Notes: generated by a model from the sequence alone, not told the origin. 64,000 bases of DNA from Natrinema thermotolerans DSM 11552 (GCA_000337115.1 AOIR01000005.1:51006-115005), one strand, 5' to 3'; counted from the stretch's first letter, positions 49,356 through 64,000 are shown. A program made the numbers and translations.

Positions 49356-50417
49356 TCAGGGTGACCAGATCCCCGCTTCTCGATCGAGCAGCGCGACCAC
49401 GACGACGTGGGGAAGCGTCAGCACGGCGATCGCGACTAGATAGACCGCGAGGACGTCGGGGACGGTTGCGGGCGTCCGGGGGACGGCGAACCAGATACCG
49501 ACGAGGACGCCCAGCGCGGCGACGGTCAGCGGCGTCGCGTCCCTGGCGAAACACCGGAAGGCGGTCCGGGTCGCTCCGCGCTCGAGGGCCGCGCTGGCGA
49601 CGGGATCAACGAGCATCGTTCTGAGGACGTGCCGGAGCGAGTGCCAGAAACAGAAATAGAGCCCGATGGCGAGGATCGGCGGGACGGTGGCGAAGAAGCC
49701 GACGAGGCCGATCGTCTCCGCGGCGTCGACGAGCCACGGCCGCCGCTCGCCGGGGCTCGTTCGGCCGAGTCCGAGGGCGAGCGAGAGTGCAATCAGGGAT
49801 CCGAATCCGACCGCCACGGCCGCCCGAACCGGCGGTTCGAAGAGGGGCTCGAGCGCGGTCGCCGCGCCGGGGTCGAACAGTCCGACGATCGTCTCGGCGA
49901 CGAACGCGTACTGTGCCGGAAAGGCGACCAGCGGGACGAGCATCGGGAGACCGCCCCTGACGAGGAGGGCAAGCAGTCGACTGGCCCGCGTCTCGAGGTG
50001 GTCGGCACCGAGGAACTCGAGAAGCACATAGACGTCACCCTGCCCCCAGTGGACGAGCGTGACGAGGAGAAACAGGACGAACGCGGCGACGGGCGCGAGA
50101 ACCCAGACGAGGGCGTAGGCGGATCCGAAGAGCAGGTAGAGGACGCCGATGGACGCGAGCGATCGCGGCGTTACCGGGTTGTCTCGAGCCCGCGGTACCA
50201 CGAGGTGGTCGACGGCACCGTGGGGGAGTCCGAGAACGAGGACGCTGAGCGCCAGCGGCACGTACTGGTAGACGAGCGGCGGCGACCCAAACGCGATCGT
50301 CGCTACGGCAGCGACGGCAAGCGACGAACCGAAACCGAGGGTCAGCCGAGCGGCTCGCGATCGGCTTTCGGCGCTCGCTCGCAGGTCGGCGCGCCGATCG
50401 ATCGCGTCACCGGTCAT
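49356..50417 (-). CDS. blh: Brp/Blh family beta-carotene 15,15'-dioxygenase (retinal synthesis)
   Basis: This 353-aa membrane enzyme has about ten helices and the family's iron-binding histidines in GLPHGAVDHL, TLVHWGQGD, CFWHSLRHVL and LTLPHVVVV. Brp/Blh enzymes cleave beta-carotene into two retinals, the chromophore of the rhodopsin encoded at 51444. It overlaps the lycopene cyclase gene by 11 nt, so the two are translationally coupled. An Ala/Arg-rich stretch of about 25 residues leads the protein. Confidence 0.93.
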   Translation of the reverse strand: MTGDAIDRRADLRASAESRSRAARLTLGFGSSLAVAAVATIAFGSPPLVYQYVPLALSVLVLGLPHGAVDHLVVPRARDNPVTPRSLASIGVLYLLFGSAYALVWVLAPVAAFVLFLLVTLVHWGQGDVYVLLEFLGADHLETRASRLLALLVRGGLPMLVPLVAFPAQYAFVAETIVGLFDPGAATALEPLFEPPVRAAVAVGFGSLIALSLALGLGRTSPGERRPWLVDAAETIGLVGFFATVPPILAIGLYFCFWHSLRHVLRTMLVDPVASAALERGATRTAFRCFARDATPLTVAALGVLVGIWFAVPRTPATVPDVLAVYLVAIAVLTLPHVVVVALLDREAGIWSP

Positions 50418-51189
50418 CGGAATTCGTCGGAAGCCGCGGTGATGCGCTCGGCCACGCCGAAGCGGCGCCGATTCGATCGAGGAGCCAGACGTACATGGTG
50501 ATCCCCTGGACGACGAAGAGGTTGGTCACGAGGAAAAACAGCGCCTCCTCGATCGGGAGCCCGAGGAGTGCGTACCCGGTAGTGTGGGTATCGGAAATGA
50601 CCCAGACGCCGAGTTCGATCGCGATCCGGTCGACGACCCAGAGGTACAGCGTCGGGACGGCGATCGCGACCAGCAGCGACCGGCGAACGTCCCACAGGTA
50701 CGTCAGCCCGAACCCCCACTGGATGGCGAGGACCGGCCCGGCCCAGAGGAACAACCAACCGAGATAGGACGTCGAGATATCGCCGAGCAGCAGCAGGCCG
50801 ACGACGGCGATCGCCAGCCCGCCGGCGACGCCGAGCAGGCGATGGAGTCGGGGGATCGCCAGCGATCGATCGGCGCTCGGTCGTACCTGAAACAGCCAGA
50901 GCGCCGTCAGTATCGGCTGAAGAACGAAAAAGAGGTACTCCTCGATCGGCGTATACCAGACGGTCGCGAGGACGGCACCGTCCCCGTACCACCAGACGCC
51001 GGCGGGGATGAGGCGGTTCGTAAACGGTGTCGTATAGACGACGGCGAGGGCGATCATGATCACGAGACCCGAGAGGGGGCGAACGCCCCACCAGGCGCGA
51101 TCACGCCGAACCGCGAGCCATCCCAGAATCAGGATTGGCGGTAGCAGCAAGGTGAGGTGGATTCCGAAGTACGTAAGCGGGGAGATCAT
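50407..51189 (-). CDS. crtY: Lycopene beta-cyclase (CrtYcd-type)
   Basis: The 260-aa protein has seven or so membrane helices and two copies of the cyclase domain signature, TPIEEYLFF in the first half and LPIEEALFF in the second, as in archaeal cyclases in which CrtYc and CrtYd are fused. It converts lycopene to beta-carotene, the substrate of the Brp/Blh enzyme encoded by the overlapping next gene. This links carotenoid supply to retinal formation and then to the opsin 254 bp upstream on the same strand. Confidence 0.93.
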   Translation of the reverse strand: MISPLTYFGIHLTLLLPPILILGWLAVRRDRAWWGVRPLSGLVIMIALAVVYTTPFTNRLIPAGVWWYGDGAVLATVWYTPIEEYLFFVLQPILTALWLFQVRPSADRSLAIPRLHRLLGVAGGLAIAVVGLLLLGDISTSYLGWLFLWAGPVLAIQWGFGLTYLWDVRRSLLVAIAVPTLYLWVVDRIAIELGVWVISDTHTTGYALLGLPIEEALFFLVTNLFVVQGITMYVWLLDRIGAASAWPSASPRLPTNSDDR

Positions 51190-51443
51190 GGGCGTATCGG
51201 CGGTCTCTGTCAGTGACCAGCGGGAGCCGGGACCGCCGTGACCGACATTACGGACGGGAGCGGAATACTGCCGCGTCCATACTGGTTAGGGTCGATCGGC
51301 CGTCGTCGTACCCGCGGCCGCATAGCTCCGCTCGAGGGCGTCGTCCGGCGGGAACTCGCGTTCGAACCGGCAAACGAAACCGACCGCGGGTCGGCCACGG
51401 GACAGCCCCGCGAAGCCGACCATCAGGCGTCGATGCTGTGTTC
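51190..51443. other. Gap between bop and crtY
   Basis: These 254 bp hold no convincing gene; open frames here look like shadows without a start context. No clear TATA box directly precedes crtY on the minus strand, so crtY and blh may be read from the bop promoter, or from a weak promoter I cannot identify. Confidence 0.4.
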
Positions 51444-52196
51444 TCAGGCCGGCGCGGCCGTCGGCGTAACGACCCGCTCGAGGACGGAGCGGCTCCGGAG
51501 CAGGACCACGCCGAATCCGACCTTCGCCGAGAGGTCGAGTACCATGAACGCGGCGGTCTCCCAGTACAGCGGGAGGATGCCGAACGTCCCCTCCGTACCG
51601 AGGATCCAGACCACCGGGTAGAGGAGCCACAGCACGATGACCAGGTTGCGCAGCCGACCGAACAGCGACGCGACTTCGGGGGACTGACCGCGCGCGTCCT
51701 TAGAGAGCGTTCCGACGAGGACGTACAGCAGGGCGAGCAGGGCGCCGGTGCTGATACCCCACCAGGCGATCCGGGTGCCCGGGGTGGCGGCGAACGCCGC
51801 GATCATGCCGGTCCCGATCATGAACACGTCGAGTCCGATCAGCGTCGCGATCGTGTTTCGGTTCGCCCCTGCCAGCAGTCCGAGGTCGAGCAGCAGCAAC
51901 GGCGTCGTGAACAGCCAATCGGCGTAGCGCGCCCAGTAGATCGTGAGCGCCTCGTCGCCGACTACGACTTCGGTGACGCCGAAGCCGGTCGCCATCGCGA
52001 AGTACATCGCAGCGGCGATGGTCGTAATGAAGGTCGTAATGATGTAGAACTCCTGCATCTTCCGGTCGCGAACGCCACGTCCGCGCCCGACGAAGTACAG
52101 GGTTCCGAGGGTCATTCCGATCGTGCCGATCCACAGCCAAATGGATTCTGGGCCAACTGTTGCGGCCATGGTGATTGCTATGAAGGGACAATACAT
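51444..52196 (-). CDS. bop: Bacteriorhodopsin-type proton pump (deltarhodopsin-like)
   Basis: The 250-aa seven-helix retinal protein keeps all proton-pump residues: D93 and D104 in [18 protein letters not shown] (BR Asp85 and Asp96), release glutamates E202 and E213, and Schiff-base lysine K225 in [10 protein letters not shown]. With retinal it pumps protons outward in light, feeding the A-ATPase. From memory it is nearly identical to Haloterrigena deltarhodopsin. I start at ATG 52196 because nine residues (MYCPFIAIT) then precede [11 protein letters not shown], the same length of leader as in that protein; ATG 52169 is the alternative. Confidence 0.95.
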
Positions 52197-52211
52197 ACCG
52201 CTTGAGCCTAA

Positions 52212-52220
52212 CGAAAATAA
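52212..52220 (-). promoter_or_regulatory. Probable TATA box of bop
   Basis: TTATTTTCG on the minus strand is the only AT-rich core element close to the start codons. Its spacing (about 21 nt to ATG 52196, 48 nt to ATG 52169) fits neither start perfectly. I did not find the ACTAGTTGGG-like upstream activator known from Halobacterium bop. Confidence 0.45.
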
Positions 52221-52335
52221 CACCCATCGTAGCGTGTATGTCAAGAAATTCGACGTGGAGAGTGAAACCGCAGCGTATTTTGGGGTGTTCTGTGTCCGAT
52301 CGCATACCCCGAGACCGAAACACCCGCCACAACCG

Positions 52336-52935
52336 ATGACTTCGCCTGATCCGAACGATCCGATCGCGGACGCACTCCTCGGTGAATCAACGTACGAACG
52401 ACTCAGAGTCGAGCGATACGCGCTGATCAAGCGCCGAATTCCGCAAAAGCTCGTCTATCAGAGCGGCCTGCTGTTTGCGATCGCACTCGTCGTTCCGATC
52501 GTCGCCACCTATCCGTCGTCGGTACAAGCGACGTTTCCGGGCGGCGACCCGTTATGGTCGTCGCCGCTGGTCCTCTGGGTCGGTGTCTACGCCGGCGGCA
52601 TCGAATTGGGGACTGCAGCCTGTCTCGTCGCGGTAGCGATCGCACGTCGGCGGTACGAACACTCACTCTCGGAGTCGCAGGTACATGCGCTGCTAAACGT
52701 CGAGGACGTGGCCTCGATGTTCGGACTGGCAACTGGCGGCTTCGCGATCCTGATCACGGTTGGGTTCTTCCTGCTCGGCCACGCCGGCGCCGAGACCGTC
52801 AGCGCGGTCGTCGAATCCGCGCCGCGAAACCCCTACGGACAGACCGGCATCTCGGTCCCCGTAATCGTCGTCGGTGCCGCGGCGGCGATCAGTTCCTGTG
52901 TCGTCTACGCCGTCGGTCGATATCTCTCCTCGTAG
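52336..52935 (+). CDS. Four-helix membrane protein divergent from bop
   Basis: The 199-aa product has an acidic/basic N-terminal region ([20 protein letters not shown], then [10 protein letters not shown]) and four membrane helices ([75 protein letters not shown]). Its start is 140 bp from the bop start, back to back. Halobacterium bop also has small linked genes of unclear role (blp, bap), but I cannot establish homology by eye. A TATA-like GTATTTTGG lies at about 52272-52280. ATG 52336 gives a clean N-terminus. Confidence 0.7.
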
Positions 52936-53165
52936 GAAGCGACGACCCTCCCGACCGGTGACCATCGGTCCGGTCGAGTGGGAGACTACGATCGGACGAA
53001 ACGGAGACGCCTGCGTGGGGAAAGTGGACACATGATCATCCGATTCCCCAGATGCCAGACCATGTGCATCGACGACACGGACATTGTAACTAGGTGTTTA
53101 AGGATTAGATTCATATAGAAGACAATCGTCTGCATTCGGTGTGAACAACGGAGTGATTCCAACGG

Positions 53166-54056
53166 ATGAGTGCAGATAGGACGACGTTCGTCTATTCGGG
53201 AATCGAGCGATCGAACGGGCCGTTTCTGACGGATCACCGGTCGCTCGAGGCGATGCACGAGCGGATCGTCGCGGACATCGAGACGAGAGTCGACGAGGCG
53301 GATGCAAGCGGCGTCGTCGTGGCGATGAGCGGCGGGATCGATTCGACGGTAACGACGGCACTAGCGGTCGAAGCCGTCGGGGCCGAGAACGTTCTCGGAC
53401 TGGGACTGCCCTGTCACAAGACCGAGGCGACACACGTCAGTGATGCCCGTACCCTCGCGGAGGGGATGGGCATCGAGTTCGAGGAGATCCAGTTACGGCC
53501 GCTGCTCGAGGCCTTCGAGGAAACGGTCGCGGGCGGACTCGGGACCGCCGACGAGGGGGACGACGATCGGCCCCACGATATTGGCAACGCCGTCGCGCGG
53601 CTACGGATGGTCACCGCCTACTACGCCGCGAACTGCCAGTCACGGCTCGTGATCGGGACCGCGAACCGCTCGGAGCGGCTGCTGGGCTATTTCACCAAGT
53701 ACGGCGACGGCGCCGCCGACAGCTATCCGCTCGGCGACTGCTACAAGACGGAGGTTCGCGCGCTCGCGAAACACCTCGGCCTTCCCCGCCGGATCGTCAG
53801 CAAGGAGCCGACAGCGGGCTTTTGGGCCACCCAGACCGACGCCGGCGAACTCGGTGCGAGCTACGACGTCATCGATCCCCTGCTCGTCCGGCTGGTCGAC
53901 GAGGGTCGTCCGCTCGAGGAGGCAATGAAGGGGTTGCGGATCGACCGCGAGACCGCGGCCGACATCGCGTCGCTGTACGTCGCTACCGATCACAAGCGGG
54001 CGACGCCGCCGACGCCGGGACTCGCCGGTCGCGGTGACGACCGCTCGGCGGGCTGA
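53166..54056 (+). CDS. nadE: NH3-dependent NAD(+) synthetase
   Basis: This 296-aa enzyme has the ATP-pyrophosphatase P-loop SGGIDST at 55-61 and family landmarks RLVIGTANRSERLLGYFTKY, GDGAADSYPLGDCYKTEVRA and ATQTDAGELGASYDVIDPLL. It adenylates nicotinate adenine dinucleotide and amidates it with ammonia to NAD. There is no nitrilase-type glutaminase domain, so it uses ammonia. The 230-bp region upstream has TTTAAGG and CATATAGAAG at about 53096-53120, suggesting a leader of about 40 nt. Confidence 0.95.
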   Translation: MSADRTTFVYSGIERSNGPFLTDHRSLEAMHERIVADIETRVDEADASGVVVAMSGGIDSTVTTALAVEAVGAENVLGLGLPCHKTEATHVSDARTLAEGMGIEFEEIQLRPLLEAFEETVAGGLGTADEGDDDRPHDIGNAVARLRMVTAYYAANCQSRLVIGTANRSERLLGYFTKYGDGAADSYPLGDCYKTEVRALAKHLGLPRRIVSKEPTAGFWATQTDAGELGASYDVIDPLLVRLVDEGRPLEEAMKGLRIDRETAADIASLYVATDHKRATPPTPGLAGRGDDRSAG

Positions 54057-54088
54057 TCGCGCTCGGCGGTGACACAGTCCGCTGCGGT

Positions 54089-54502
54089 TCAGCGCTCGTC
54101 GTCGGTGCTGTACAGATCCGGATTCCGCCACCAGAACAGCCCCCACGAGAGCAGGAAACCGGCACCCATCGCGAGGACGTCGAGCAGGAACGGCGGCAGC
54201 CCCCGATCGACCAGCGCCACGAGGACGATCGCCGACCCGATCGCGGCCCCCGTGACGACGTAGAGGACATCGCCGACGATCCGCGCCCGCGAGTGTCGCC
54301 AGTAGCCTTGCCGATCCTCGTCGTACCAGACGCCGACGTAGATCAACACCGGCGACATGGTCGTGATGACCGTGATCGATCGGTACGCCTCGGGGAAGAC
54401 GGTCGGCACTAACACGACGAGATTGAGTAGGTTGGCGACCAGCGCCGCGAGAAACAGGCCGATCAACAGCCAGCCCCAGCGTGGGAGCCGCTCTTTGTCC
54501 AT
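54089..54502 (-). CDS. Small four-helix membrane protein
   Basis: The 137-aa product starts MDKERLPRWGWLLIGLFLAA and has four hydrophobic helices with short loops (SITVITTMSPVLIYVGVWYD; VLYVVTGAAIGSAIVLVALV; LLDVLAMGAGFLLSWGLFWW). The last segment ends RNPDLYSTDDER. No function is recognised. It converges with nadE and follows the winged-helix regulator in the same direction. ATG 54502 is used; a GTG five codons upstream is possible. Confidence 0.7.
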   Translation of the reverse strand: MDKERLPRWGWLLIGLFLAALVANLLNLVVLVPTVFPEAYRSITVITTMSPVLIYVGVWYDEDRQGYWRHSRARIVGDVLYVVTGAAIGSAIVLVALVDRGLPPFLLDVLAMGAGFLLSWGLFWWRNPDLYSTDDER

Positions 54503-54547
54503 ATCGGGGACGGTCACGGCTGGAAAATAAGACTGCCGTTTGACCGA

Positions 54548-54841
54548 TTACTCCGCGCAGCAGGCGTCCTTTTTCGGGGACTCCTCGACGCCGTTACCGT
54601 CGGCGGCGACCGGTTCCTCGAGCCGATAGAGGCTCTGACGGGCGTCAGCGAAGTAGATGTCCTCGTCGACGATCCCGATCTCCTCGAGGCGCTCGAGCGC
54701 GTACCGTACCGTCCGGGCCGAGAGCATCGATTCCTCGACGATCTGTTTCTGCGTCAGCGGCCCGTCGTACTCGAGAACCTTGAAGACGAGTTTCGCGCTC
54801 GGTGGCAAGTCTTCGATTTCCTCCCCGTCGGTCTCTGCCAT
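54548..54841 (-). CDS. Small winged-helix transcriptional regulator
   Basis: The 97-aa protein is essentially one winged helix: PPSAKLVFKVLEYDGPLTQK, QIVEESMLSARTVRYALERL as the recognition helix, and IGIVDEDIYFADARQSLYRL as the wing. It ends in KKDACCAE, whose two adjacent cysteines might sense metal or redox state. MarR/ArsR-like single-domain regulators of this size are frequent in haloarchaea. The target is unknown; the acyl-CoA ligase gene upstream on the same strand is a candidate. ATG 54841 is supported by an ideal TATA box 28 nt upstream. Confidence 0.82.
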   Translation of the reverse strand: MAETDGEEIEDLPPSAKLVFKVLEYDGPLTQKQIVEESMLSARTVRYALERLEEIGIVDEDIYFADARQSLYRLEEPVAADGNGVEESPKKDACCAE

Positions 54842-54863
54842 ATTACGATTCGAAAGGCCCCAG

Positions 54864-54874
54864 AAGTATAAAAG
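54864..54874 (-). promoter_or_regulatory. TATA box of the winged-helix regulator
   Basis: CTTTTATACTT on the minus strand is centred 28 nt upstream of the ATG at 54841. This is a textbook haloarchaeal core promoter for a leaderless mRNA. Confidence 0.7.
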
Positions 54875-55022
54875 TTGAGCCTTACCCTGGATCGAACCAC
54901 GATAGGATTCTATATATATCGCCGAGTAAAGTGCCCCGTGAGTCGCTACAGCGGATGATATGCGTGTCGTCACCGATCGATCGAAACGCGTCAAAAAAGA
55001 CGTGAATCAACGGGACGAGACG

Positions 55023-56633
55023 TTACCCCTCGCCGATCATTCGGTCCTCGTCGGCCCACTCCTGCTGGCGGAGTTCGTACTTCTGGGTCTTGCCGGTCGC
55101 AGTCTTGGGGAGTTCCTTGACGTACTCGACCCGGCGAACGACCTTGTAGCCCGCGAGTTGCTCGCGGGTGAACGCGGTCAGTTCTTCAGCCGAGACCGGC
55201 GGATCGGTCGGATCGCCGTTCGACGGCACGACGAAGGCCTTCGGCGTCTCGCCCCACTCGTCGCTCGGAGCCGGGATTACCGCCGCGTCCGCGACCGCCT
55301 CGTGATCGAACAGCGTGTCCTCGAGTTCGATGCTCGAGATGTTCTCCCCGCCGGAGATGATGATGTCTTTCTTCCGATCGCGGAGCGCGATCATGCCGTT
55401 CTCGTCGATCGTGGCGAGGTCACCGGTGTGGTAGTAGCCCTCGACGCGATCGTTGAAGGCTTCCTCTGTCGCCTCGGGCTTGTTCCAGTAGCGGTCCATG
55501 ATCTGGTTGCCCCGGACGACGACCTCGCCCAGCGTCTGATCGTCGCGGGGGACGTCGTTTCCATCCTCGTCGACGACGCGGACGTCGGTCCCGAGGACGC
55601 CCATGCCCTGCCGTTTCTTGATCTCGAAGCGGTTCCCATCGTCGATCAGCCGCTTCGCGTCGGAGATGGTGATCAGCGGTCCCGTCTCGGTCGCTCCGTA
55701 GAGGTGCTTGAGATACCAGCCGAAGCGGTCCTCGACGGCACGGATCGTCGCTTCCGGCGGTGCCGAGCCCGCGGTCGTGACCCGGACCGGATTCGCCCCC
55801 GTCATCTCGGGTTCGCCCTCGGTCTCGTAGTAATCGATCAACTGATTGAGTACCGCCGGGGCCGCACAGAGCAGGGAGACGTCCTCATCACGGATCGACG
55901 ACACGACGTCGTCGGCGTTGACCCCGCGCGTACAGACGTGGGTCGCGCCCATCCCGGTCACCGCGTAAATGTGGCCCCACCCGTTGACGTGGAACATCGG
56001 CAGCGTCCACAGGTAGGTGTCGTCGTCGGTGATCTCGTGATAGATCGACATCAGGTAGGCGTGGATCGTCTCCGTCCGATGGGTGCGACAGACCCCCTTC
56101 GGATCCCCCGTCGTCCCTGAGGTGTAGTTGATCGTAATGACCTCGTCTTCGGCCATCTCGGGGCGGTCATACTCCGGAGCCGTATCCTCGAGGACGGCGT
56201 CGAAGCTCTCCCAGTCGCCCTCGACAGCATCAGCGTCGTTCGTAATGAACGTCTCGGTCGGCACGTCGTCGCGGATCGCCTCGATCTTCTCGGCGTACTC
56301 GTAGTCGGCATAAATGGCGTCGACGCCCGCGTCCGAGAGGATGTACTCGTAGTCGTCGGGCTCGAGCCGGTAGTTCAGCGGCGTATGCACGGCACCGATC
56401 CCCATCGCGCCGTGGGCCGCCTCGAGGTGGTAGTGGGTATTCGGATCCAGCACGGCCACGCGGTCGCCCTTCTCGATCCCCCGGTCCTGCAGCGCCGCCG
56501 CGAAGCGATCGACTCGGTCGCCGAACTCGGCGTAGGTAAACCGTTCGCCGTCCGCCCCGACGATCGCCTCCTCGTCCCCGTAATGGGAACGGGCCTGCTC
56601 GAGAAAGTCCGTGACAATGAGTGGCGTTTCCAT
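55023..56633 (-). CDS. AMP-forming acyl-CoA ligase (fatty-acid type), copy 2
   Basis: This 536-aa paralog of the ligase at 23498 keeps all adenylation motifs (NYTSGTTGDPKGV, YGATETGPL, YYHTGD, DRKKDIIISGGENIS and the C-terminal lysine in TATGKTQKYELR). The two proteins look about 80% identical overall and share a 62-bp block of identical DNA (55204-55265 here). Differences cluster in the middle (about 180-340), which lines the acyl pocket, so substrate range may differ. It has its own promoter with a palindromic TATA element. Confidence 0.9.
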   Translation of the reverse strand: METPLIVTDFLEQARSHYGDEEAIVGADGERFTYAEFGDRVDRFAAALQDRGIEKGDRVAVLDPNTHYHLEAAHGAMGIGAVHTPLNYRLEPDDYEYILSDAGVDAIYADYEYAEKIEAIRDDVPTETFITNDADAVEGDWESFDAVLEDTAPEYDRPEMAEDEVITINYTSGTTGDPKGVCRTHRTETIHAYLMSIYHEITDDDTYLWTLPMFHVNGWGHIYAVTGMGATHVCTRGVNADDVVSSIRDEDVSLLCAAPAVLNQLIDYYETEGEPEMTGANPVRVTTAGSAPPEATIRAVEDRFGWYLKHLYGATETGPLITISDAKRLIDDGNRFEIKKRQGMGVLGTDVRVVDEDGNDVPRDDQTLGEVVVRGNQIMDRYWNKPEATEEAFNDRVEGYYHTGDLATIDENGMIALRDRKKDIIISGGENISSIELEDTLFDHEAVADAAVIPAPSDEWGETPKAFVVPSNGDPTDPPVSAEELTAFTREQLAGYKVVRRVEYVKELPKTATGKTQKYELRQQEWADEDRMIGEG

Positions 56634-56656
56634 ACGGATCAAATTTTGCAGAACGG

Positions 56657-56666
56657 CCATATATGG
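56657..56666 (-). promoter_or_regulatory. Palindromic TATA element before acyl-CoA ligase 2
   Basis: CCATATATGG is a perfect 10-bp palindrome centred 28 nt upstream of the ATG at 56633. It serves as TATA box by position and, being symmetric, might also bind a dimeric repressor. Confidence 0.6.
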
Positions 56667-56814
56667 ATTTCGTTTATGATCAATAGGGAGGAATTCGGTT
56701 CAGATACAGAATCGGTGTCGGACCGAAAACGTTCGGTCGTATGCAAACGGTAGCCAGTTCGATGCGACGGCGCGATAAGAACAGCGACACCGTCACGACG
56801 AAACGGTGGGATCC

Positions 56815-57999
56815 TCAGAGCTGTTCCCAGACCTCTTCATCGTCCTCGAACCCGTCCGGGTCGTCGGGCGCGGCGAACTCGTTGCTCGTGTCGAGTTCCG
56901 ACAGATCCTGCGTGGGGAGGTCGCCGTCGCCGTCGATGACGGCCGGACTCGCCTCCAGGTCCATCTCCGGCCACGCAGTCTCCTCCCAGAGCCCGCGGTC
57001 GCTGTAGTAGTAGACCACTCCGTCGTTGACCACCGCGAACAGTCCGCGCTGGGTGTCGTGAACGACGCGCTCGTTCGTGTCGATCGCGACGTCGACGACG
57101 TCCTCGAGCGTATCGAGCGAGACGTGGTAGTCGCCGATCCACATCGGGATCGATCCCCGCGAGATCCACTCGGCGTACCGCCGTTCGTGAAGCGCCCGGC
57201 GGGCGGCCTCGATGTCGCCCGACGAGCGGCGCACGACCAGTGCCGCGCCGGCGAGCGACAGCGTCCCCAGCAGCGACAGGCCGCCGATCATCGCCGGACT
57301 GCGGGACGTGGTCGTCCGCTCGGTCCCGCTGCGGTAGCGGTGTGGCGTCGACTCCGACAGCTCGCCCTCGAGCCAGTAGGCCTCGTCGGTGATCGTCATC
57401 GGGGCAGTGGTCGTGAGCGTCCCCTGATGGGTTCCGGTATCGTACTCGGTGCGAAGCACTACGGCCAGTTCGACCGATCCGATCCCGCCGAGTTCGCGCT
57501 CGAGTTGGCGCTGTTGTCGGCGGTAGGATTCGACGTCGATCGTCGCGTTCGACGTGGCGACGCCGTTCTCGACCGACGGCGACTCGCGCAATACCGTCGT
57601 CGTCTCGTTCCAGAACGGAGAGCCGTCACGGGTCGCCTGGAAGCGCAGTCCCAGTTCGTGTGTCACGTCCCCCGACTCGACGGGGGCCCCGCCGGTCTCG
57701 TTTCGTAGTCGGGTTTCGGCCTCGAGCGTCAGCTCCGGTGTCGCGTTCAGCAGGTAGACGGCACTGTCCGAGAGCCGCTGGCCCTCCATCCACAGCGTCC
57801 CGCTCTCGGTGACGACGGCGCTGGTACTCCCGTCGGTCGTCACGCGTTCCTCGGTGTACTGTGGGGCGGTCGTCGTGTCCGGATTAGCGACGGCCCACCC
57901 CGTCGCGGCGATCGACAGCACGCCGACCGCGATCAGTGCGATCACGATGGTCCGACCGTGCTTGGCCAACAGCAACTCGAGACGCGGGTTATCGGTCAT
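56815..57999 (-). CDS. DUF5305-like membrane protein of the surface module
   Basis: The 394-aa protein has a membrane helix near the N-terminus (GRTIVIALIAVGVLSIAATG), an outside domain of about 200 residues with many Thr/Ser and paired strands (VVTESGTLWMEGQRLSDSAV ... GTHQGTLTTTAPMTITDEAY), and a second helix (MIGGLSLLGTLSLAGAALVV). A cytoplasmic domain (YAEWISRGSIPMWIGDYHVS) and an acidic tail follow. From memory this is the haloarchaeal DUF5305 family, often found next to a signal peptidase as here. Function unknown; a role in assembling or anchoring exported proteins is inferred from neighbours. Confidence 0.78.
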   Translation of the reverse strand: MTDNPRLELLLAKHGRTIVIALIAVGVLSIAATGWAVANPDTTTAPQYTEERVTTDGSTSAVVTESGTLWMEGQRLSDSAVYLLNATPELTLEAETRLRNETGGAPVESGDVTHELGLRFQATRDGSPFWNETTTVLRESPSVENGVATSNATIDVESYRRQQRQLERELGGIGSVELAVVLRTEYDTGTHQGTLTTTAPMTITDEAYWLEGELSESTPHRYRSGTERTTTSRSPAMIGGLSLLGTLSLAGAALVVRRSSGDIEAARRALHERRYAEWISRGSIPMWIGDYHVSLDTLEDVVDVAIDTNERVVHDTQRGLFAVVNDGVVYYYSDRGLWEETAWPEMDLEASPAVIDGDGDLPTQDLSELDTSNEFAAPDDPDGFEDDEEVWEQL

Positions 58000-58161
58000 C
58001 CCTGTGTCCCCCGGTGTCCCGGCCGGCCAGTCGACCACTCGGCTCCGTACGAGCCGATCGGGGTCGAACTGGTCGGCCTTCGGGACAATACATGACTAAG
58101 TGAAAGAAACAGACCATTATAAGGATAGTGGCCTTTCCGTGGTATTTGCAACAACGAAACG

Positions 58162-59340
58162 TTATTTCCAATCACGGAACCATCGCCGAGCGCGACGCTT
58201 GAGACGGGTCGACAGCGGGACGTGACTCCCCGCAGACCGAACTCGGATGTCGTCGCTGCCGAACAGCAGCAGTACGATCGCGACCGCGATCCCGACGATG
58301 ACGACGTTGACCGCCGCGATGGCCGCGAGCGGATGGAGGCCGTGGAGCCAGAGCAGTACCGATGGTGGCAACACGGCGAGATACCGGTACTCGCCGAGGT
58401 GACGCGTGTACTCGCCCGTCTGCTCGGGTGCCGACAGCGTTACCGTCGCCTCCCCGCTGTCACGAATCCCGATCGTCTGCGACCGCGGCTCGACGCCGAT
58501 CCCGCCGCTCTCGGGCTCGTGGGCGACCACGATCGGCAGGTAGCCGGCGTTGTCGATCGTCCGGGTCAGTTCCGACGTTTCGCCGGGCGCGACGATCTGT
58601 GGATCGTCGGTGGGCGACTCGGAACTGATGAGACCGTACTCGGTGGTGCCCGACGGAACGACCATCGCCGCAGTCGCGAAGGTCACGAACACGAGCAAGA
58701 CGAGCCCCAGCGCCGTCCAGAACGCGATCACGTTCTCCCGCGAGCGGGACCGGCTCGTCTCGCGGCGGCCCGGCCCGAGCCGCTCGAGGAGGGTCCCGAA
58801 CCCGAGCATCGCGACCCCGACCCCGACCAGCAAGGCACCGAGCCCGTTCGAGGAGCCGGTCGTCACGCCGAACACCGACGTGACCGTCTCGACGCCGCTC
58901 TGGACGGCGCTCTGGAATCCCATGATCGCGGTACCCAGATGCGGGATCGTCACGACCTTCCCGTTGACTTGCCAGGCTTCGGCGACGATCTGTCCCTCCG
59001 TGACGTGGGGTTCGCCGCCGTCCTGATCGGTAAAGGGGTTGGCGTCCCCTTTCGTGACGTACCCTTCTTCAGTCTCGTCGACGACGCGGTGGGTCGTCAG
59101 CCCGCCGCCGTTGAGATCCCGTGCCTGAAACACGACCACGTCCCCCTCCTCGACCGGGCCAGTCACGACGCTGGGCACGGCGACGAAGCCGTCGCCGGCG
59201 TCGATTTCCGGCTCCATACTGCCGGTCGCGACGTAGCCGAGCAGGATCGGCTGGCCCAGCAGCTGGCCGACCACCAGCAGGATGACGACCAGCGCGAGGA
59301 GGGCTCCGAGCCCCCGCGTGACGAGCGTCGAGTTTGTCAT
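58162..59340 (-). CDS. ER-type signal peptidase I with long C-terminal extension
   Basis: The 392-aa protein starts with a membrane helix (LGALLALVVILLVVGQLLGQ) followed by the catalytic motif GSMEP (S41) and HRVV (H84), the Ser-His pair of the Sec11/SipW class. The peptidase domain ends near 140. Two more helices and a Ser/Thr-rich outer domain follow (about 240-330, ELTRTIDNAGYLPIVVAHEP), then a last helix and a basic tail (KRRARRWFRDWK). This is over twice the usual archaeal length. Its place between a TasA-like secreted protein and DUF5305 suggests a dedicated processing enzyme. Confidence 0.88.
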   Translation of the reverse strand: MTNSTLVTRGLGALLALVVILLVVGQLLGQPILLGYVATGSMEPEIDAGDGFVAVPSVVTGPVEEGDVVVFQARDLNGGGLTTHRVVDETEEGYVTKGDANPFTDQDGGEPHVTEGQIVAEAWQVNGKVVTIPHLGTAIMGFQSAVQSGVETVTSVFGVTTGSSNGLGALLVGVGVAMLGFGTLLERLGPGRRETSRSRSRENVIAFWTALGLVLLVFVTFATAAMVVPSGTTEYGLISSESPTDDPQIVAPGETSELTRTIDNAGYLPIVVAHEPESGGIGVEPRSQTIGIRDSGEATVTLSAPEQTGEYTRHLGEYRYLAVLPPSVLLWLHGLHPLAAIAAVNVVIVGIAVAIVLLLFGSDDIRVRSAGSHVPLSTRLKRRARRWFRDWK

Positions 59341-59451
59341 CGGTGAGTGACGGTCATCGGTAGCAGACGCCTCGATCCAAGTATATGTCCGGTGAAGTAT
59401 AAAACTCGCGAGAGTCGTCGAGTCGCGCTCGCGGCGGCTCGAGTTCGCGAC

Positions 59452-60597
59452 CTACCGGACGAACGACCAGCGCCGGTTCGCAGCGATCGCCAGGAACAGC
59501 AATCCGGCCGTCGCCGGCGGCGCGAGCGCCGCCGTCGTCATCGGCGACAGTTCGCGGTTCCGGATGTCGAACCCGGCCCGCTCCTCGACGGTTACCGTCC
59601 CCGCGTCGACGCCGCTGACCGCGATCGCGTAGGTTCCCGGCTCGTCGAACGACCGCCGGAAGGAGACCGTCCGCTCGCCGTTGGCCGGGATCGAGACGGT
59701 TCGGGTATCGACGACGATCCCGTCGACCGACAGCTCGAGCGTGCGCTCGATCCGCCTGTCGGACGGGTTTCGAACCGTCGCCCGGACGTCCGCGGTCTCG
59801 CCGGCGGTGATCGTGGCGTCGTCGATGGTGGCGCTCGAGACCTCGAGCTGCGGGCCCGCGACGGTCACGGACTGGTACCCGACCCCCTCGATCCCGACCT
59901 CGTACGTGCCGGGCCACTCCATGCGCCGCTCGAAGCTGACCGTTTGTTTCTCGCCCGACGAGAGGGCGACCGTCCGCTGGTCGACGACGGTCCCGTCGAC
60001 CGTCAGCCGGGCCGTTTCCACTCCCCACCCGTCACCGTCGTTTCGGTAGGTCGCGTTGACGGTCACTGTCTCGCCCGCCTCGACGGTCGTCGGCGAGACG
60101 CTGACGGTCGAACCGCGGATATCGGACTCGGTTTCGTCCTCGTCCTCGTACTGCGCGACGACCGTGAACGTCTCCGTCCCGCTGACCGCCTCGTGCGTGT
60201 CGACCGCGACGCCAATGCTGGTCCTCGAGCCCGGCATCGGCGTGAGCGGGCGCGATTTACTGATCGTCGCGCTCGGATCACCGTCCCGGTAGAAGGAGAG
60301 GCCAGGAACGTCGTTCTCGATCCAGAGGCGTTCGACGTCGTCGACAGTGACCGAGATCGTGAAGACGTTGTCCGCGCGGGTTATCGCGCGATCGTTGAGT
60401 TTCTTAAGGTTGAGCCGGAGTTCACCATCCTGAACTGAAGCATACCGGGCGTCAGTCAGCTCGAGGACTACGTTACTGCTCGCCTGATCCTCACCCAACG
60501 TGAGTGCCGCAGTCGGGACTATGAATGCAGAAGAAAAACAGATCACTGCGATGCCGATTAGGATTTCAGTTGATATCAGTTGGACAGAGGTATTCAT
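59452..60597 (-). CDS. Membrane-anchored surface protein: TasA-like domain plus CARDB repeats
   Basis: The 381-aa protein has an N-terminal signal helix (EILIGIAVICFSSAFIVPTA). A domain of about 120 residues (ADNVFTISVTVDDVERLWIE ... TETFTVVAQYED) resembles the C-terminal part of DUF1102/TasA-like proteins. Two CARDB-type Ig-like repeats follow (VEAGETVTVNATYRNDGDGW and ITAGETADVRATVRNPSDRR), then a C-terminal membrane helix (TTAALAPPATAGLLFLAIAA) with a short basic tail. It should sit anchored on the cell surface. The resemblance to TasA-like domains is by eye and needs profile searches. Confidence 0.75.
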   Translation of the reverse strand: MNTSVQLISTEILIGIAVICFSSAFIVPTAALTLGEDQASSNVVLELTDARYASVQDGELRLNLKKLNDRAITRADNVFTISVTVDDVERLWIENDVPGLSFYRDGDPSATISKSRPLTPMPGSRTSIGVAVDTHEAVSGTETFTVVAQYEDEDETESDIRGSTVSVSPTTVEAGETVTVNATYRNDGDGWGVETARLTVDGTVVDQRTVALSSGEKQTVSFERRMEWPGTYEVGIEGVGYQSVTVAGPQLEVSSATIDDATITAGETADVRATVRNPSDRRIERTLELSVDGIVVDTRTVSIPANGERTVSFRRSFDEPGTYAIAVSGVDAGTVTVEERAGFDIRNRELSPMTTAALAPPATAGLLFLAIAANRRWSFVR

Positions 60598-60662
60598 ATA
60601 TTCTTCTCCGTTTGTGCGTCTTCTCGAGGTGAGATATCGATACCTGTCGTCGGTTAGGAATT

Positions 60663-61220
60663 TTAGTTTGCTACCAACGTCAGATCCTCAGTACTCGTAC
60701 CAGTTTCAGTGGTCTCGCTACCTGTTCTCACAGCCACATTTACATCGACCGTTTCAGAAGTATCAGCAAGTGTTGCTGACCCATTACTACTGCTGGCAAG
60801 TGTAAACTGGGCTTCAGCTATAACGTTATCATTGCTGTCCGTTTCGACAATGATAGTAGTTTGATCAGTTTGATCAATTCCGGTAGTAGTTTTGTCGTCG
60901 AATCCAACAGTTATCGAAGGGTTACTGGTATCCGCAGAATTATTTGAAAGAGTGAGAACACTGTTAACGGTAGTCACTGCATCATCGTTGAAACCATTGG
61001 AATCACCACCAAGATCAATACTGACTGCATTCTCGCTGCTCGCACCGTCAGTCGCGTAGGTTCCATCCACGCTAATGCCGAGATATGCACTGTCATCACC
61101 GGCAGTATTGACCGACACGGTCCGATCTGCCTGCACACTACTAAACGCGCCCGTTCCGAGCGCGGCGCCGCCGCCAGCGACGATCGTACCCAATCCAACT
61201 AACACGTTGCGTCGATTCAT
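60663..61220 (-). CDS. DUF1102 secreted protein, TasA/camelysin-like filament candidate
   Basis: The 185-aa protein begins MNRRNVLVGLGTIVAGGGAA and continues LGTGAFSSVQADRTVSV. This pattern (hydrophobic stretch, then GTGAFSS just after it) echoes the SipW-dependent signal (GTxAxFSD) of bacterial TasA and camelysin. The mature part is a Ser/Thr/Asn/Asp-rich beta protein ending in STEDLTLVAN. Base composition is clearly lower in GC than the neighbours. It is the first of four co-directional genes with a signal peptidase third. ATG 61220 and ATG 61226 are both possible; a GGAG lies 9 nt before the latter. Confidence 0.78.
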   Translation of the reverse strand: MNRRNVLVGLGTIVAGGGAALGTGAFSSVQADRTVSVNTAGDDSAYLGISVDGTYATDGASSENAVSIDLGGDSNGFNDDAVTTVNSVLTLSNNSADTSNPSITVGFDDKTTTGIDQTDQTTIIVETDSNDNVIAEAQFTLASSSNGSATLADTSETVDVNVAVRTGSETTETGTSTEDLTLVAN

Positions 61221-61226
61221 TCTCAT

Positions 61227-61670
61227 GATTATGGTCTCCGTTCCGCGCCCCAGCACCACCCTGTGAGGGGTGCCGGAACGCAGTTCCTACTCCCGTCTAT
61301 GAACGTCACCCACTTTGTATTGAGTATCCAGAACGGGCGCAAGACCGGCCATACGATGGTTCAAGGCCGTCTTGAACACAGGTAGCAGCCACTCGAGACC
61401 AACAAGTGCCGCCTGAAACATCACAATCAGCCCCGAATGTGACGTGGCTCGTCACCGATATCGAGACTGCACATCTCCGCCAAGCAGGACCCACTTCGCT
61501 CGAGATTACTGAGAGAACGCTCAGTCCCGTTTACTTCGGATTTCAACGATCGGTTGGTGCCGCTCGACAGCACTCAAGATGTACTTGTAACTCCTCCCCA
61601 GGTTACGATATTTCAACGACGATGCGCATTTTTATAGTAGGAAAGTAGTTACTGAGTAAGAGATTCAGTA
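61227..61670. other. Divergent intergenic region, low GC, no supported gene
   Basis: The 444 bp separate the DUF1102 gene (minus) from the long pilin-like protein (plus). There is one perfect hairpin, GTTCAAG-GCCGT-CTTGAAC at 61359-61377, and only short frames on both strands, none with a recognisable product. A TATA box TTTATAG at 61630-61636 serves the plus-strand gene, giving a leader of roughly 10 nt. The region may hold decayed insertion DNA, but I cannot identify it. Confidence 0.5.
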
Positions 61671-64000
61671 ATGGTGGGAGAAAGAAATCGGGATGGTTCC
61701 CAGCGGGAGGACTCGGAGGACCGTGGCGCGAGTCCGCTCGTTGGAATCGTCCTGTTGTTCGCACTCGTAATAATGGGTGCGATGCTCGTCTTCGTCGCCG
61801 GTTCGGCGATGCTCGATGCAATCAAATCGGAAGCGAACAGTGAACGGACCCAGCAGTTCGCAATGGAGATCGATCACAGGCTAACGACCGTCGCGACGAC
61901 GGGATCGGACCAGCCACTGCCGATCGATGAGATGCAGGGGAACGAACCGACGATCACCGATGACGGGAATATCTCCGTCAGGTGGTATAACGCGTCGAGC
62001 GGGAGTCGTACTTGTGCCCCCGTCGAGGGAGAACTCCGCGCACTCGAGTTCGAACTCGACGATCGAACGATCGCCCATCAGGGTGGCGGTATCTGGGAGA
62101 AAACCGATCGCAGCGTCAGCACTGTCTCGGAACCCAATATCGGATACGATGGAGATTCGTTGCAGCTCCAGATCATGGAACTCGAGGAGGACGACTTCGG
62201 ATCGAGCGGCACGGTTGCGAGAGCGAACCACAGCCGGTCGACGGAGCTAACCGAGACGATCAACACTCGTGCCAGAGCCTGTAGCGACGCGACCTCGATC
62301 GAGTTCCGCATCGAAGACAGTACGTACCACGAGGGATGGGCGACGTATCTCGAGGACGCAGTCGGTGCGGACGAGTACAGTGAGGTGTCCGTAACCCACA
62401 AACCGGCCACCGAAGACGTCATCGTCCAAATCGAGAACGTCAGGACGCCGGTCGATAGCGCATCGCTGCTGATCGAGTCCGACAACGGGATCAAACACAC
62501 GAGCGGAAACACGCAGCCGGTCAAATTCGGGGACGATCTCCAGTTCCAAGCAACGCTGAATAACACCGGAAGCGACAGGGTCACCCCACCGACAATGCGC
62601 GTCGCAATTGATGGTGGGACAGTCGTCTCGGAAAACAGTGGCAAGGGTGGCAATGGTGCTGTTCCCGGCAACAAGGAAAAAAACCGGTCAGTCAAAATCG
62701 ACTCGGACAACTACGAGGATCACCTCTCGCCCGGCGAGACATACGAGTATACGCTCCAAACACTCGATGAGTCCGGTGATATCGACGACACGCTCGAGGA
62801 CCCCGGCGAGTTCTACCTCGGCGAACCAGGATCGAACTTTACCGTCAACGACATCGAAACAACGCCCGCTGATGGCGACAACGCGACTATTAGCGCCGAA
62901 ATAACGAACATCGGTATCGAGGAGGGCGACCGCACCGTGACCATCGATTTCGATGAGTTCGATGTTACTGCTAGCGAGGAGTTGACCCTCGACTACGGGG
63001 CAACCGGGACAGTCACCTGGACGGTCAACAAATCCGCACTACCCTACGAGCCAAACGAGTTTGAAGTTCGGACCGGTGACGACACTGCAACCGGAACCAT
63101 CGTCGGAGGAGCCACTGGAGAGGCAGAAAACGCGTTCACGGTCGTCAAGGACAACGGCGTCGGGGACGATCAGATCGTCACCGACGAGAACTCGTTCACC
63201 GTCGAAGCCGTCGTCGAGAACACGTACGCCGACGAGCAGTCACGAGATGTCACGTTGACGGTTCCGGATGCCGGAATCACTATGCCCGAACCAACGACAC
63301 TCGAAAGCGGCGAGCAAGAGACGGTCTCGTTTACCGTCGATCCCGACGAACACAACCTCGAGGCCGGGACGGTCTACGAGTACAACGTCACGGCCGGCGA
63401 GGAAGGCTTGAGCGAGCCGGGATCGTTCTACGTCGGCAAGCCGGGAACGAACTTCGAACTGTCGAACGAGAACGTCACGGTCGATGAGAACGTCACCGTC
63501 ACGGCCGACTTGGCAAACATCGGTGTCGAGTCCGGCTCACAGACCGTGGCGCTCGATATCGAATATCTCGATGAGATGCCGGCCGACCTCGAGGGAGAGA
63601 GTCCGTACGGACGGATCTTTGAAGGAGAAGTTAACCGGTCGTTTGGCGAATCGGATACCATCGAACTGAACTTCAACGGGACCAAACTGCTCGATGGAGA
63701 GTATCAGGCAACGATTCAAACTGAGGACGGAGTTAAAACGACAAACTTCACCGTTGATGCTGGGATCGATCCTGGCCGAGTCGGTCTGGGTGAGGTCGAC
63801 GACGCGAACGTGAGTGTCGATGTCGTTGGCTCACAGGTGTCTGGAAACTACAGCGATGACTGGCACCTGCTCTCGCCGATGACTCTGGATGTAGTCACGA
63901 ACGGCGAAACTGAACATACTTTTAGCAATCCTAATGGCGGCACCAACATCAATACAGGAACAACATGGCAGGACAAAAGTAGTGATAGTTATACACACAA
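61671..64000 (+). CDS. Long pilin-like surface protein with CARDB-type repeats (3' end outside window)
   Basis: The frame starts at ATG 61671 and stays open to the last base (776 codons), so the gene is partial. The N-terminus is a class III (prepilin-like) signal: RGASPLVGIVLLFALVIMGA after a charged leader. This matches the haloarchaeal DUF7289 type from memory. After about 200 residues of mixed domain come beta repeats; FYLGEPGSNFTV and FYVGKPGTNFEL mark one repeat 615 nt (205 codons) apart, each followed by a TxxxxNIGxE(x)G CARDB strand pattern. Asn/Thr-rich with many N-glycosylation sequons. Likely exposed on the cell surface and divergent from the TasA-like module. Confidence 0.8.
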   Translation, partial: MVGERNRDGSQREDSEDRGASPLVGIVLLFALVIMGAMLVFVAGSAMLDAIKSEANSERTQQFAMEIDHRLTTVATTGSDQPLPIDEMQGNEPTITDDGNISVRWYNASSGSRTCAPVEGELRALEFELDDRTIAHQGGGIWEKTDRSVSTVSEPNIGYDGDSLQLQIMELEEDDFGSSGTVARANHSRSTELTETINTRARACSDATSIEFRIEDSTYHEGWATYLEDAVGADEYSEVSVTHKPATEDVIVQIENVRTPVDSASLLIESDNGIKHTSGNTQPVKFGDDLQFQATLNNTGSDRVTPPTMRVAIDGGTVVSENSGKGGNGAVPGNKEKNRSVKIDSDNYEDHLSPGETYEYTLQTLDESGDIDDTLEDPGEFYLGEPGSNFTVNDIETTPADGDNATISAEITNIGIEEGDRTVTIDFDEFDVTASEELTLDYGATGTVTWTVNKSALPYEPNEFEVRTGDDTATGTIVGGATGEAENAFTVVKDNGVGDDQIVTDENSFTVEAVVENTYADEQSRDVTLTVPDAGITMPEPTTLESGEQETVSFTVDPDEHNLEAGTVYEYNVTAGEEGLSEPGSFYVGKPGTNFELSNENVTVDENVTVTADLANIGVESGSQTVALDIEYLDEMPADLEGESPYGRIFEGEVNRSFGESDTIELNFNGTKLLDGEYQATIQTEDGVKTTNFTVDAGIDPGRVGLGEVDDANVSVDVVGSQVSGNYSDDWHLLSPMTLDVVTNGETEHTFSNPNGGTNINTGTTWQDKSSDSYTH

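Follow-up and report, generated by a model that had tools for sequence, protein, structure and literature searches.

A probable Tat-fimbria (Tafi) gene cluster and the probable replacement of its pilin in Natrinema thermotolerans DSM 11552

Introduction

Tafi are haloarchaeal fimbriae exported through the Tat pathway, with TafA as the core subunit (Galeva et al. 2025, iScience 28:111793, as represented by its citation in PMC12687288). A filament of this kind has been solved within the genus Natrinema: PDB entry 9p0a, with the chain name 'Pilin', is titled 'Structure of Natrinema sp. J7-2 Tafi pilus' in Foldseek. Canonical clusters encoding TafA, TafC and TafE also hold a long signal peptidase, a DUF5305 protein, a DUF7344 HTH protein and TafF; in one such cluster (L109), TafA, TafC and TafE score 246, 552 and 223 bits, above the NCBIfam cut-offs. 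NCBIfam names A, C and E only, and the letters B, D, F and G are guesses from gene position. More distant parallels are the archaeal bundling pilus of Pyrobaculum calidifontis (AbpA, 7ueg), a donor-strand beta filament, and TasA of Bacillus, which polymerises by donation of a freed N-terminal strand (PMC9674648).

The stretch of DNA analysed here, termed the window, comprises 64,000 nucleotides of Natrinema thermotolerans DSM 11552 (GCA_000337115.1 AOIR01000005.1:51006-115005). A preliminary description read positions 56815–61226 as a TasA-like surface-filament module with its own signal peptidase. The locus is very probably a haloarchaeal Tat-fimbria cluster that encodes Tafi. The genes do not make up a new haloarchaeal TasA module, because they belong to the described Tafi (NCBIfam TafA/C/E; PDB 9p0a), a system already known and solved in the same genus.

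Organization of the locus

The four co-directional genes described at 56815–61226 are confirmed; all lie on the minus strand and encode proteins of 187, 381, 392 and 394 aa, in an order strongly conserved across Natrialbaceae. The features of the locus and its surroundings are as follows.

60663..61226, minus strand: probable Tafi pilin, a TafE/TafA-like subunit of 187 aa (NCBIfam, PDB 9p0a, gene position, AF2)
61149..61226, minus strand: stretch coding for the Tat-type signal peptide, residues 1–26, as far as GTG|AF; a conserved flank for recombination
59452..60597, minus strand: TafF-like anchor/adaptor of 381 aa with two CARDB domains (Pfam, profile comparison, hydropathy)
58162..59340, minus strand: long ER-type signal peptidase I of 392 aa (TIGR02228, residues, hydropathy)
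56815..57999 (alternative GTG start at 58038), minus strand: DUF5305 membrane protein of 394 aa, TafG-like by position and domain (PF17231)
60179..61116, minus strand: apparent exchanged cassette that holds the mature pilin and the anchor N-domain (DNA comparison with genome G080, GC)
61671..64000, plus strand: start of the divergent arm, a DUF7289/type-IV-pilin-N-like protein of 1024 aa cut by the window end
55023..56660, minus strand: AMP-binding enzyme (PF00501, 1e-81)

The subunit gene probably starts at ATG 61226 (MRMNRR), a choice favoured because the solved homologue begins MKMNRR. The AMP-binding gene adjoins the block in most Natrinema loci and is missing from many other genera; as a neighbour that is often, not always, conserved, the enzyme is probably not part of the pilus system.

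The pilin and its relation to the solved Tafi pilus

The first protein had been assigned to DUF1102, and neither that family nor TasA/camelysin (Peptidase_M73) is matched in Pfam up to E=1. Its homology is instead clearly to the Tafi subunits, judged by NCBIfam matches to TafE (NF052522; E 4e-19, 69 bits) and TafA (NF052520; E 5e-16, 59 bits). Both scores fall below the equivalog cut-offs, 155 and 190 respectively, and the protein is therefore placed in the broader group of Tafi subunits and not under TafA or TafE proper.

The pilin begins MRMNRRNVLVGLG, a Tat-type signal with the twin-arginine stretch NRRNVLVG, and the GTGAFSS motif previously described stands at the signal end. Cleavage would fall at GTGA|FSS and leave a mature beta protein of ~160 aa. 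Of 155 subunit-like proteins that carry the cut-site motif, 151 have RR ahead of the hydrophobic stretch and the remaining four RK, which makes export via Tat probable. Conservation continues past the predicted cut: across 37 aligned subunits, AF..V.A.R at the start and, further on, D18 and N54 (mature numbering) are invariant.

At E up to 10, the pilin has a single sequence match in the PDB, 9p0a (E 9e-19), to which it is 44% identical. The two share the genus, the gene slot and a near-identical signal and N-terminal strand, whereas beyond residue 20 the mature part of the window pilin is only ~27% identical. In genome G089, the gene that fills this slot, ahead of the orthologous peptidase gene, encodes a product 100% identical to residues 1–205 of 9p0a as taken from the alignment. 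An 80-residue stretch of 9p0a is likewise matched in Natrinema gari JCM 14663 (L145:5860-6537), where a CARDB gene (6577) and a peptidase gene (8001) follow immediately downstream, with DUF5305 also in the block. Of the 215 residues of 9p0a, 188 are modelled, a number consistent with the loss of 27 at GTGA|FSS, provided that the rest of the chain is ordered.

The rod could be formed by another protein, for instance an orphan subunit encoded on contig C53 of the same genome, leaving the product of 60663–61226 as an adapter. This is improbable: a subunit homologue does exist elsewhere in the genome, and the best family match of the pilin is TafE, which NCBIfam names 'fimbrial adapter', but the protein of the 9p0a Natrinema pilus, which occupies the same slot, is likewise TafE-like by score (77 bits) and does not rate as TafA (53 bits, from the N-terminal part alone). 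The orphan (L003:7927-8568, minus strand) scores 59 bits against TafE and lies near the contig end, with no peptidase called nearby; it could be a second pilin.

The identification of the four genes as a Tafi locus extends to their partners. As in canonical tafi clusters, a Tat-type subunit signal is accompanied by what appear, from domain and profile matches, to be a long ER-type signal peptidase, DUF5305 and DUF7344 proteins, a TafF-like anchor and TafC-like proteins. The locus differs from canonical tafi in a subunit below the TafA/TafE cut-offs, an anchor with CARDB, another gene order and the absence of a TafA-proper gene from the window's block. In two Natrinema relatives (sister species), full TafA genes (176 and 212 bits) stand within the same block.

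The anchor, the signal peptidase and the DUF5305 protein

The second protein had been described as TasA-like with CARDB and a membrane anchor. Its CARDB content (PF07705, 2.6e-14, two stretches) and two hydrophobic segments, at residues 12–30 (signal or TM) and 355–373 (C-terminal TM), are borne out. Between them, at about residues 31–140, lies the subunit-like N-terminal beta domain that had been noted for its similarity to the first protein; profile comparison relates it to the pilin (96.9%, E 1.7e-10) and, with HHalign, to TafF (98.7%, E 4.6e-16).

The reading of the third protein as a long ER-type signal peptidase with S41 and H84 holds. It scores 55.8 bits against TIGR02228 (archaeal/ER-type signal peptidase I), above the cut-off of 51.85, and 38.7 bits against the SipW equivalog NF046067, short of the cut-off of 190. 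S41, H84, D99 and D105 are present and invariant in nine homologues, and hydropathy indicates a C-terminal extension of ~250 residues with three more hydrophobic segments. The enzyme is 95% identical to that of the nearest named locus, in N. mahii, and 42% identical over 362 aa to the peptidase of a canonical taf cluster. Since the other two signal peptidases of the genome stand in tandem on another contig, C33 (L008:8538-9524 and L008:9590-10684), where they are presumably the housekeeping enzymes, the cluster peptidase, an ER-type enzyme of the SipW/archaeal group, is plausibly dedicated to the pilus, in agreement with the earlier proposal of a dedicated peptidase. The fourth protein is a DUF5305 member as described (PF17231, 1.7e-50), with weak direct similarity to its counterpart in a canonical taf cluster (E 9e-7).

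Long signal peptidases also form another, paralogous group (L059–L078; 43–51% identity), accompanied by separate subunit genes and a TafG-like gene, and some genomes hold several such clusters. One haloarchaeal long signal peptidase is encoded on a contig (L178) of a 'Mollicutes bacterium' MAG, which is probably mis-binned.

Conservation and extent of the cluster

Relatives of the peptidase (E up to 1e-10) occur in 110 of the 121 genomes of the family. At 38 named loci with an orthologous peptidase, the synteny survey proposed earlier finds the subunit gene upstream in 36 and the CARDB protein in 33; DUF5305 follows downstream in all 38, and DUF7344 is present as a divergent gene in 32. The association of the four genes is not due to chance. 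A plasmid search also located the peptidase on a few haloarchaeal megaplasmids, and clusters of this kind are therefore not confined to chromosomes.

Beyond the window end (G000:C5:115.9-119.9 kb), the cluster goes on with a TafC-N-like protein of 173 aa, a DUF7344 regulator and proteins of 554 and 322 aa that share a similar kind of signal end. Three proteins of this divergent arm match the pilin profile in a search of the whole genome (3.9 Mb), which returned six places, five of them within 8.1 kb of the locus. The DUF7289 protein at 61671–64000 is very large, has an archaeal type-IV-pilin-like N-terminus and, at many Natrinema loci, is encoded within the Tafi cluster. The 554-aa protein (L128:5662-7326) is secreted; it has a Tafi-like signal, and its C-terminus consists of a series of G-D-V-like repeats. 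A relative in L119 matches bactofilin (Polymer-forming cytoskeletal). The DUF7344 domain has 28 above-cut-off matches in the genome, one of them within the Tafi cluster.

Probable replacement of the pilin cassette

Compared with the closest genome (G080), the window is 94.8% identical in DNA over 50001–60178 and 90.0% over 61117–63625. Over 60179–61116, there is no detectable DNA similarity to G080 apart from the subunit signal region. The missing stretch corresponds to the mature pilin and the anchor N-domain, and G080 has three subunit genes in place of the single one of the window. The left break falls at 60177/60178 in three separate comparisons. Most of 60179–61116 has a GC of 0.39–0.57, as against 0.67–0.73 downstream, and pilin GC is lower than peptidase GC in 66 of 66 genes.

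The same pattern recurs among relatives, where the mature pilin is often just 34–61% identical at loci whose neighbouring genes are 90–98% identical. In the 20 closest single-pilin pairs (peptidase identity at least ~0.90), pilin identity is 0.89–0.98 in six and 0.34–0.61 in 14. Within Natrinema, the signal is 88–100% identical and mature residues from 21 onwards 23–57%. The type of anchor N-domain changes 9–10 times on the peptidase tree and once on its own tree. Break points, identities, GC and tree changes together make replacement of the pilin well supported. The subunit gene appears to have been exchanged between species more than once, with the surrounding assembly genes unchanged.

Rapid ordinary divergence with no cassette replacement would also give a variable pilin; surface proteins evolve fast, and relatives with pilin identity near 0.6 exist. 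That account is nonetheless unlikely, given sharp DNA breaks at the same place in three comparisons, a subunit number that shifts from one to three, a GC shift across the variable segment and identities that are mostly bimodal in the 20 pairs above.

A matched exchange of the anchor domain with the pilin is suggested. In an exploratory comparison, anchor N-domain type was associated with pilin number (9/10 versus 3/40, Fisher 8e-7, for a pattern defined post hoc). In a held-out set with two multi-pilin loci, the figures are 1/2 versus 2/21 (p 0.25); because this small set did not confirm the link, it is suggestive only. Co-divergence of single pilins and anchor N-domains beyond phylogeny was considered separately and is not supported (partial Mantel r 0.05, with 123 of 1000 permutations as high).

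With replacement of the pilin as the preferred account, there is an even chance that Tafi loci serve for the exchange of pilin cassettes. Recombination events between the conserved DNA of the signal peptide and the anchor gene would swap the mature pilin, or a set of one to three pilins, sometimes with the matching anchor N-domain, and the peptidase and DUF5305 genes would be kept. Viruses or kin recognition would be possible drivers of such exchange.

Fold and proposed assembly

AF2 gives moderately confident models for the pilin (pLDDT 76) and the anchor N-domain (pLDDT 79), and both are nearly all beta with a low-confidence N-terminus. The structure prediction proposed earlier, against TasA and AbpA, ranks the latter higher. 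In Foldseek against the PDB, the pilin model has 7ueg at rank 1 (E 6.5e-3) and the TasA fibre 8aur at rank 33 (E 1.9); the fold score for AbpA is itself weak (TM 0.30), and the window pilin has no sequence match to it. For the anchor N-domain model, FimI/FimA, CssA and 9p0a are in the top four fold matches, with weak scores. Most of the best PDB matches of the two models are donor-strand pilins, at low TM-scores of 0.3–0.4.

Assembly may be envisaged as follows. The 187-aa pilin would fold in the cytoplasm and then be exported by Tat, a step suggested by the twin-arginine signal and the published Tat dependence of tafi. The ER-type signal peptidase of the cluster would cut the signal at GTGA|FSS. 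The freed N-terminal strand, FSSVxADRxVxV, would then enter the groove of the next subunit to form a filament of donor-strand-complemented beta-sandwiches, as conservation and the relatives of the pilin suggest. The anchor, with its pilin-related N-domain and C-terminal membrane anchor, may cap and hold the filament base, for which a TapA-like role offers a parallel (PMC10151520). The DUF5305 protein would be a membrane accessory, and the divergent arm probably supplies minor subunits or tip adhesins together with the DUF7344 regulator.

Comparison with the Bacillus TasA system

The functional analogy to Bacillus drawn in the preliminary description is good. Both systems combine a secreted beta filament, an accessory initiator, a dedicated ER-type peptidase and an aromatic residue right after the cut site. 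Unlike TasA/TapA/SipW, the locus probably uses Tat and not Sec export, and it has no TasA family match and a CARDB/TafF-like anchor in place of TapA. The proposal of an archaeal TasA counterpart thus stands for the architecture and fails for a new module, the system being the known Tafi; kinship to TasA is weakly supported by fold. A true TasA/TapA system in archaea, inherited along with SipW, with Sec-exported TasA filaments and the CARDB protein as initiator, is very unlikely: the beta fold, the SipW-like motif at the signal end, the weak SipW similarity of the peptidase and the published donor-strand scheme for TasA/TapA (PMC9674648, PMC10151520) are parallels, against which stand the Tat-type signal of the pilin, a SipW score far under its cut-off, the lack of a TasA-family match in Pfam, the low rank of the TasA structure and the fact that a TapA-like protein is not recognised at the locus.

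Significance

An unannotated haloarchaeal locus is here tied to a solved pilus, with a likely role for each gene, including the peptidase and the anchor. The new elements are a gene-by-gene assignment for Natrialbaceae and the well-supported replacement of the pilin cassette. The cassette pattern makes it testable whether archaeal surface filaments vary by allelic replacement, as in bacteria with pilins. If true, cassette exchange would be a means of archaeal surface-filament diversification akin to bacterial pilin antigenic variation.
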